From: Botryosphaeria dothidea
Lineage: Eukaryota; Ascomycota; Dothideomycetes; Botryosphaeriales; Botryosphaeriaceae
DNA length: 64,000 nucleotides
Direction of reading: 5' to 3'
Assembly: GCA_011503125.2 (NCBI GenBank)
Contig: WWBZ02000016.1
Span: forward strand, 2,604,001-2,668,000
Made by a program: the position numbers and the translations under genes. A model generated the notes under the pieces. The model was not told where the DNA came from and made no database searches. It saw nothing but the letters and a program-made list of their open reading frames with translations. Every line of letters starts with the position of its first letter. Positions within the stretch are counted from its first letter, which is position 1. Shown here one piece after another: positions 55,318 to 57,409 of this stretch.

Positions 55318-56136
55318 ATGTCTTCCGAAACGAACAATGACGCTCTTATCCACTCGTCGGATCCTGAACACCCGGCCAACCTGATCTGTGAGCTGTGCCG
55401 CAAGTTCTATACCTTGGGCTGGGTAGGGTTGCACACTGAGCCCAACACCCACGAGCTCTGCTGCTGCTAACCACCACCCATCAGGTCACCGGCACTGGCG
55501 GCGGAACGAGCATCAGGCAGCATGACCACATCTTCATTGCGCCCTCGGGCGTGCAGAAGGAGCTGATGAAGCCCACCGACATGTTTGTCATGGATTTCAA
55601 CTCTCGCGAATACCTGCGCAAGCCCCAAGTCCTCAAGCCCTCGGCCTGCACTCCTCTATTCCTTGCTGCCTTCAACAAGGGCGCTGGATGCTGTATTCAT
55701 ACCCATTCGCAATGGGCCGTACTGATCACCTTGCTTGTCGAGCGTGACTTCGGTAGCGACGCTTGCTTTGAGATCGAGATGATCGAACAGATTAAGGGAA
55801 TTCCCAAGGGCCGCGGCAAGCAAGGTAACCTGGGCTACTTCGACCGTTTGCGCATTCCGATCATCGAGAATACTGCCCACGAGGAGGACCTGGCGGATAC
55901 CCTGGAGACTGCGATGGAGAAGTACCCCGACACCTATGCTATCCTCGTGCGGAGGCACGGAATCTACGTATGGGGAGACAATGTGCACAAGGCCAAGACT
56001 CAGTGTGAGAGGTGAGTGGAACTGATCTTGCTGAGTCCCCAGCCGCAACACTGACAAAGAGCGTTCCGACAGTTTGGACTACATTTTCCAGCTCGCCGTA
56101 GAGATGAAGAAATTGGGACTTCCGTGGACCAAGTAA
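55318..56136 (+). CDS. MDE1: Methylthioribulose-1-phosphate dehydratase
   Basis: Three exons, 55318-55422, 55485-56011 and 56073-56136, give 231 residues. The first junction restores [19 protein letters not shown], the signature of the class II aldolase fold in this enzyme. [11 protein letters not shown] follows. The zinc ligands lie in CIHTHSQWA (His107 and His109) and in RRHGIYVWG, with the acidic pair in HEEDLAD nearby. The enzyme dehydrates 5-methylthioribulose-1-phosphate in the cytosolic methionine salvage pathway. The first intron has a textbook GCTAACC branch. Length and domain order match the family. Confidence 0.95.
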
Positions 56137-56490: not shown

Positions 56491-56658
56491 TCACATTATG
56501 GAGCATTTCACAGGGAGGCCACAAGGACCTTCCTTCTCCTTCTTCTGAGGCTCATTTGGAGACGTCTTTGCCTGCTGCTGTGTGCCAGCAGGGGCATCAT
56601 CCTTCTTCTCAGCGCCGGTAGTCGCGCCATTGGTGGCCTCGGCCTTGCCTTCATCTAG
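56491..56658 (-). other. In-frame readthrough extension ending in a CaaX box
   Basis: Directly after the TGA at 56661-56659, the same frame continues with CTA GAT and stays open for 55 codons to a TGA at 56493-56491. It begins LDEGKAEATNG, is rich in Lys, Glu, Thr and Gly with no hydrophobic core, and ends GPCGLPVKCSIM. CSIM is a CaaX prenylation motif (Met favours farnesylation). The Cys six residues upstream of the CaaX Cys could be palmitoylated. The context TGA CTA G is the known efficient readthrough consensus. No GT-AG intron of normal length could remove the stop, because suitable GT dinucleotides lie within about 40 nt of it. Confidence 0.75.
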
Positions 56659-57409
56659 TCACGCGAAGTTGACCTTGGAGATGACCTCGTAGAAGGCCTT
56701 GCCCTGAGCCTGAGCCAGCTCAAGCTCCTTCTGCGACGGCTGGCGCGAACCATCGCCAGCGGAGAAGGTACCGGCACCCCAAGGAGAGCCGCCGCGGACT
56801 TCGGACAGGTCGGACAGCAGAGCGAAGGTGTGCTTGTAGCCGAGAGGAACGTAGACCAAGCCGTGGTGGGTAAGAGTCGACATGGCAGCGATAGCGGTGC
56901 TCTCCTGGCCACCTCCCAACGTGCCGGTGCTGATGAACAGACCGGCGTACTTGCCCCAGAAGGCACCGGTAGCCCACTGGCCACCGGTCCTGTCCCAGAA
57001 AGCCTTCCACTGGGCGGGGAAGTTGCCGTACCTCGTGGGGATGCCGAACAGGAAAGCATCGTATTGCTCAAGCTCCTTGGGGTCATCCAGAGTCTTGATG
57101 GAGGTATCCTTGGGCGGGGCGTGCATTTTGGCGAGAACACCATCGGGGAGCGTCTCGGGGATTCTGACGAGGGGTCAATGCATGTTTTCGTCACGGGAGG
57201 AGTAGTAACGTACTGGAAGATGTCGACGGAGCCGCCAGCAGCCTCAATGCCTTTCTTCTCAGCCTCGGCCAGGGTCTTGATGTGACCGTACATCGAATAC
57301 TGTTGCGAGAGGACGATGTTAGCTTGTGTTTCACCGAGGATACCATGATGTGAGGTCAAACGGGAGCAGCGGGGTAACTCACGAAGACAATAGCGATCTT
57401 GGGAGCCAT
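56659..57409 (-). CDS. Flavodoxin-like NAD(P)H:quinone oxidoreductase (WrbA/Ycp4/Pst2 family)
   Basis: Three exons, 57409-57383, 57299-57214 and 57163-56659, give 205 residues to the first stop. Splicing joins MAPKIAIVF to YSMYGHIKTLAEAEKKGIE, forming the FMN phosphate loop, and VDIFQ to IPETLPDGVLAKM. FLFGIPTRYGNFPAQWKAFW and FISTGTLGGGQESTA are the other FMN-binding signatures of the type IV family. The SPWGAGTFSAGDGSRQPS loop is also typical. The enzyme reduces quinones by two electrons using FMN, limiting redox cycling. The first stop follows KVNFA, the usual end of the short family members. The frame continues beyond it into a CaaX-terminated tail (56491-56658). A longer product of 261 residues would be close in length to yeast Ycp4, which carries such a tail as I recall. 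Confidence 0.93.

Follow-up and report, generated by a model that had tools for sequence, protein, structure and literature searches.

A UGA-CUA-G stop codon probably hides a tail with a conserved CaaX end on a WrbA-type quinone reductase of Botryosphaeria dothidea

Stop codon readthrough that directs the product of one gene to two locations is, in the literature passages available on fungi and mammals, mainly a route to the peroxisome. The peroxisomal isoforms of PGK in Ustilago, of GAPDH in Aspergillus, and of LDHB and MDH1 all arise at UGA-CU(A) stops. Here we describe, in a 64,000-nucleotide window of the genome of the ascomycete Botryosphaeria dothidea (assembly GCA_011503125.2, contig WWBZ02000016.1, positions 2,604,001 to 2,668,000), a three-exon gene on the minus strand that encodes a WrbA-type NAD(P)H:quinone oxidoreductase, and we propose from sequence comparison that readthrough of its UGA-CUA-G stop probably makes a minor, likely prenylated, membrane isoform beside the short form. 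As in the peroxisomal cases, a single gene with a UGA-CUA-type context would give a short and a C-terminally extended form with different predicted locations. In contrast to them, the hidden signal is a cysteine block with a CaaX box (a C-terminal Cys-a-a-X) and not a peroxisomal targeting signal type 1 (PTS1), the extension spans 55 codons, and the leakage is predicted.

Within the same protein family, the Ycp4-type proteins also extend their C-terminus by a segment whose lipid anchor is known or predicted. According to the cited passages, Candida albicans Ycp4 carries an extension of about 90 residues that ends in a CAAX box, and reduction of ubiquinone has been suggested for the C. albicans family proteins (PMC4556627), while in Saccharomyces cerevisiae green fluorescent protein (GFP) fusions are reported to place Pst2, Rfs1 and Ycp4 at eisosomes, and palmitoylation is stated for Ycp4 (PMC7943015). 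The parallel with a lipid-anchored Ycp4, drawn in a preliminary description of this DNA, agrees with both sources as far as these passages go. Since the yeast papers place Pst2 at the membrane as well, the short form may not be confined to the cytosol. In Ycp4, however, the extension is annotated as ordinary coding sequence in one of several paralogues, whereas in B. dothidea the tail lies behind the stop of the only family gene found. A predicted prenylation signal within a readthrough extension is shared with Drosophila Syx17, for which the cited passage gives a predicted farnesyltransferase signal (PMC3840789), but Syx17 is an unrelated protein, for whose extension that passage gives no tested function, and the B. 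dothidea tail shares homology at its end with the C-termini of family members.

The B. dothidea product scores 202.4 bits against TIGR01755 (cut-off 132.5), which places it in the WrbA-type family, and its best relative in the PDB is Pst2 (5mp4). The spliced exons (Table 1) encode 205 amino acids, identical to the B. dothidea entry P0001. The protein ends in KVNFA, followed by TGA (56661-56659, minus strand) and directly by CTAG (56658-56655), so that the UGA-CUA(-G) context is present at this stop. Past the TGA the same frame meets no stop over 55 codons (56658-56494) until the next TGA (56493-56491); its full translation is LDEGKAEATNGATTGAEKKDDAPAGTQQQAKTSPNEPQKKEKEGPCGLPVKCSIM, running from LDEGK to KEGPCGLPVKCSIM before that stop, with GPCGLPVKCSIM as the last residues. 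The extended form would end in CSIM as its CaaX box, and a SKL-like PTS1 tripeptide is absent from the end of the extension. Farnesylation is the modification expected of a CaaX box in which X is methionine. Unlike in ordinary CaaX-tailed proteins, a TGA at 56661-56659 intervenes between enzyme and tail. Both the position of the stop directly before CTAG and the stop-free extension ending in KCSIM, as previously reported from the sequence, hold when coordinates and context are read again.

The length of the open frame is by itself weak evidence, because at least 55 open codons follow 613 of the 3853 stop triplets (16%) counted on both strands and in all frames of the window. Chance does not account for how the tail ends: GPCGLPVKCSIM is, on alignment, homologous to a normal C-terminus of fungal WrbA proteins. 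Across the 51.7 Mb genome, this tail is the single match to DNA able to code for GPCGLPxKC. Furthermore, protein, family and DNA-pattern searches of the genome, in which the best candidates were scored, found no second family gene that could supply a CaaX form. Both forms would then have to come from the one family gene found.

To place the tail among relatives we used two protein searches, the best 120 matches of each, in order of similarity to a Dothideomycete query, giving 164 different proteins. Twenty proteins of more than 330 amino acids, mostly two-domain tandem proteins, were excluded and 144 single-domain relatives kept; these are protein models and not DNA, and the ratio of tail to no tail among the matches listed is not a census. 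The long entries P0121-P0128 and similar ones (about 388-456 amino acids) are mostly tandem two-domain WrbA proteins, several of them from dinoflagellates (Symbiodinium) and from transcriptomes. The 144 relatives split into 26 with GPCGLPxKC plus three residues, two with aberrant ends (P0107, P0162) and 116 without a tail, the last group including the extended models P0026 and P0093 as well as P0060, P0113, P0152 and P0157, which have other insertions or N-terminal additions. Tail-bearing proteins come, among others, from Penicillium, Aspergillus, Fusarium, Colletotrichum, Rutstroemia, Pyrenophora, Alternaria, Phyllosticta and Aureobasidium. All but one of the 26 terminate right after the motif and its three residues, the exception being P0164, in which tryptophan comes next, and the final residue X of the CaaX box is Q, M, L or S. 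The linker of the tail is not conserved, and the cysteine block and CaaX box are conserved at its end. Protein-level constraint on the extension is seen in this common GPCGLPxKC and CaaX end of 26 of the 144 relatives, together with the decay simulation given below.

The position of the stop is shared as well. V[NSDT]F followed by 0-4 residues forms the C-terminus in 107 of the 116 tail-less relatives, among them ten hand-picked Botryosphaeriaceae-like entries, which all end in KVNFA or KVSFA. A sequencing slip or a strain-specific mutation at the TGA was considered and rejected, as a second B. dothidea entry and proteins of Neofusicoccum, Diplodia and Lasiodiplodia end there too. The shared stop position and the homologous tail end, taken together, indicate that the tail is probably under selection behind a shared stop.

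Among the 28 proteins with a tail or an aberrant end, V[NSDT]F stands near the C-terminus in only two, P0164 and P0015, and these suggest that stop and tail may coexist outside B. dothidea also. P0164 is a metagenomic protein of 281 amino acids from a 1349-bp Joint Genome Institute (JGI) contig. It reads KVNFA-W-LDGSSS...KEGPCGLPSKCAVL-W-DIND, with KCAVL-W-DIND at the end, and both of its tryptophans (KVNFA-W-LD...GPCGLPSKCAVL-W) occupy the positions of the B. dothidea TGA codons; the simplest reading is a gene that was presumably called with TGA as tryptophan. Its junction would then be TGA followed by Leu-Asp, as in the A-x-LD of B. dothidea, and in our quick tree it groups with Rutstroemia (SH-aLRT, the Shimodaira-Hasegawa-like approximate likelihood ratio test, 97). 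P0015 of Teratosphaeria destructans (261 amino acids) shares 203 of its first 204 residues with T. nubilosa P0052. P0052 has 206 amino acids and the C-terminus KVSFGA, and P0015 lacks the Gly-Ala end and goes on as V-GTAV...GPCGLPVKCTVS into a full tail. The P0015 gene model seems to have removed a pseudo-intron of 12 nt, GT-GCN-TGA-NNA-G, possibly a longer one, which would make the stop context at its junction TGA-NNA-G.

Real splicing at the stop is a rival explanation. If an intron spanning the stop were sometimes removed, the tail would be joined by alternative splicing and the annotated short form would be the unspliced one. Fungal PTS1 cases do alternate between readthrough and splicing across species, according to the cited passage (PMC4973966), and most tail-bearing relatives have a different sequence right at the stop junction, which also favours splicing. 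Against it, none of the 36 in-frame GT-AG combinations that remove the stop (donor at most 120 nt upstream, acceptor before GPCGLP) has a GTRNGT donor, the donors being for example GTCAAC or GTCATC, and none has a CTRAY or YTNAY branch motif, whereas the two real introns of the gene both have a GTRNGT donor and a YTNAY motif. Moreover, a single uninterrupted frame of P0164 runs from KVNFA over the presumed stop into the tail. We consider splicing quite unlikely for B. dothidea. The minor allergens Cla h 7 and Alt a 7 are relatives of the enzyme. Cla h 7 (P0142) has 204 amino acids, ends in KVNFQ and corresponds to the short form, and the allergen-family entries among the matches listed are either short or carry the tail with no visible stop (Alternaria alternata P0141). 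Alt a 7, which we take to be a short protein, differs in this from the tailed Alternaria P0141; the end we presume for it was sought in print and not confirmed. In Alternaria, this junction might be switched by intron retention. The open-access literature yielded no paper naming both readthrough and Alt a 7.

The tail could also be a decaying relic left by a recent nonsense mutation in a longer ancestor, an alternative raised earlier for this locus that conflicts with a shared stop followed by an intact tail. In its favour, the tail forms the C-terminus of 25 of the 144 relatives, with neither tryptophan nor stop behind the motif. However, ten Botryosphaeriaceae-like entries and 107 of 116 tail-less relatives have the same end point, yet the tail has kept an open frame and an intact motif, and the KVNFA-x-LD junction is found again in P0164, which groups with Rutstroemia. 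Neutral decay was simulated with 20,000 runs per divergence, survival being defined as an open frame with motif and CaaX box. At 0.05 substitutions per site 17% of the simulated tails survived, at 0.2 per site 27 of 20,000 (0.135%) and at 0.3 per site 0.005%. As neutral decay is this fast and would quickly erase the tail, its retention without function is improbable, provided that the stop is old, and we regard a relic as very unlikely.

Readthrough is the best fit to the comparative evidence, since the end of the tail has been kept behind a shared stop and UGA-CUA-G is known to be leaky; the in-frame introns examined around the stop all lack credible splice donors and branch sites, and the earlier expectation of a short and a CaaX-ended form of one enzyme is upheld in this sense. 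The cited passages describe efficient readthrough, in fungi and mammals, at UGA followed by CU, better by CUA, with G next (PMC4207609, PMC4359377), and count a G directly before the stop among the upstream bases that favour it in mammalian cells (PMC12233894); the B. dothidea stop is also preceded by G. In the proposed mechanism, ribosomes would read through the UGA after codon 205 at a low rate and add a 55-codon tail made up of a flexible linker, the cysteine block and CSIM. From its sequence, CSIM is predicted to be farnesylated and the upstream cysteine possibly acylated. By analogy with the yeast relatives, the anchored form may act at the plasma membrane as a reductase of quinones such as ubiquinone; the short form, having no anchor, would stay mainly in the cytosol. 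In a structure model of the T. destructans relative the predicted local distance difference test (pLDDT) is below 50 at residues 206-254; the tail is thus modelled as disordered and its end would be exposed.

Readthrough might occur and the tail have another role, for instance altering tetramer formation or stability, with no lipid modification in practice. Yeast PDE2 is a precedent, as its readthrough leads to PDE2 degradation in the passage cited (PMC4973966). On the other side, conservation in the tail falls on the cysteine block and CaaX box, with a variable linker before them, and palmitoylation or a CAAX end is known from the Ycp4 relatives, so that we hold this version to be highly improbable. 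RNA editing that turns the UGA into a sense codon in some transcripts, likewise suggested at first, appears to be the most far-fetched explanation. A-to-I editing of stop codons occurs in some ascomycetes, which counts for it. Nothing seen in the sequence hints at editing, the leaky context beside the stop would then be a coincidence, and a literature search joining Dothideomycetes and Sordariomycetes found no paper on stop-codon A-to-I editing.

Several results weigh against readthrough of a selected tail. Outside B. dothidea, stop and tail would stand together in just two of the protein records. A protein search of the tail region gave three candidates, none with an E value of 10 or less. 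No stimulatory RNA structure was found at the stop (z = -0.79), so that any leakage would stem from the short context. GC content at third codon positions is 0.58 in the tail and 0.77 in the gene, which also favours a relic. Neither of the two candidate positive controls in this genome, enzymes for which readthrough or splicing isoforms are known in fungi, has a UGA-CU context: GAPDH (L086) ends in TGA-ATC, its end being read by eye past an intron, and PGK (L084) in TAA. Nine tail-less relatives end otherwise than in V[NSDT]F (P0024, P0026, P0031, P0059, P0064, P0093, P0114, P0116 and P0136). In the extended models of Hortaea (P0093) and Delitschia (P0026) the motif is not encodable in another frame, a frame-shifted trace of the tail was sought on re-examination and none was found, and these two lineages may lack the tail. 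Finally, 44 of the 91 inner branches of the quick tree are open and its backbone is weak.

This tree was built from 94 of the 144 proteins, trimmed before the C-terminal junction. On it the two states, tail and no tail, need 10 changes, of which at least three are forced by well-supported branches; such a count cannot separate gain from loss. The uniform V[NSDT]F end argues, with about an even chance of being right, for an old stop that was later replaced by constitutive tails in several lines. A broader possibility, about which we are slightly sceptical, is that filamentous ascomycetes have in the leaky KVNFA-UGA-CUA-G a lipid switch that is ancient and tunable by stress. The prenylated form of one gene might then have been held behind a stop for hundreds of millions of years; the switch might cover the Dothideomycetes, some leotiomycetes and lichen fungi, and the Cla h 7 gene, with other lineages repeatedly swapping to a constitutive tail; and oxidative stress might raise readthrough and bring more of the antioxidant enzyme to the membrane. 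A review states, in the cited passage, that when oxidative stress draws termination factors into stress granules, stop-codon readthrough increases at the same time (PMC11616006). By our own extension of this, an antioxidant enzyme could be relocated by the same stress it answers.

Dual targeting by readthrough is a known mechanism, and a prenylation tail as the exposed signal would be new apart from the predicted case of Drosophila Syx17. The claim that prenylation exposed by readthrough is a new use must be qualified by the farnesylation signal predicted earlier for Syx17 in the passage cited (PMC3840789). For fungi, no readthrough-exposed CaaX box, prenylation or farnesylation was found, judged by title and abstract, among the papers that searches of the open-access literature listed. 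If the reading is true, leaky stops can also put an enzyme on a membrane, setting the ratio of soluble to anchored form by translation, and an isoform may be missing from many public models of the reductase family, those of allergens among them. The family suits comparative testing because some lineages have the same tail with no visible stop. Moreover, pseudo-intron models like P0015 may flag other readthrough genes.

Table 1. Features of the quinone reductase gene and its predicted extension (positions in the window)
Feature	Position	Strand	Remark
Exon 1 (MAPKIAIVF)	57383..57409	-	donor GTGAGT next
Intron 1, 83 nt, GTGAGT...CAG, branch-like CTAAC	57300..57382	-	spliced protein matches P0001
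Exon 2	57214..57299	-	
Intron 2, 50 nt, GTACGT...CAG, branch-like TTGAC	57164..57213	-	
Exon 3 including TGA, codes for C-terminal KVNFA	56659..57163	-	
Stop context TGA-CTA-G, high-readthrough motif in other organisms	56655..56661	-	passages in PMC4207609, PMC4359377
Predicted 55-codon readthrough extension: low-complexity linker and KEGPCGLPVKCSIM	56494..56658	-	end homologous to relatives' C-termini
Conserved GPCGLPVKC block, first Cys a candidate S-acylation site (prediction)	56503..56529	-	
CaaX box CSIM, predicted farnesylation signal	56494..56505	-	
Second stop TGA, end of extension	56491..56493	-	

An MtnB-like gene (55318-56136, plus strand), MtnB being presumably methylthioribulose-1-phosphate dehydratase, converges on the quinone reductase gene, with about 350 bp between its stop at 56136 and the tail. 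The tail was also considered as a by-product of an antisense gene, and this was rejected as the MtnB-like gene stops at that distance from it. Fungal contamination was looked for in two further collections and the idea dropped in both: in the viral collection four stretches matched a pattern and none encodes a relative, the viral match to the motif DNA being a chance peptide, and in the prokaryote collection the best 80 of 228 relatives are bacterial by title. Two records labelled as trees, P0136 (Quercus suber) and P0163 (Corymbia citriodora), cluster with Dothideomycete proteins and are probably fungal contamination.
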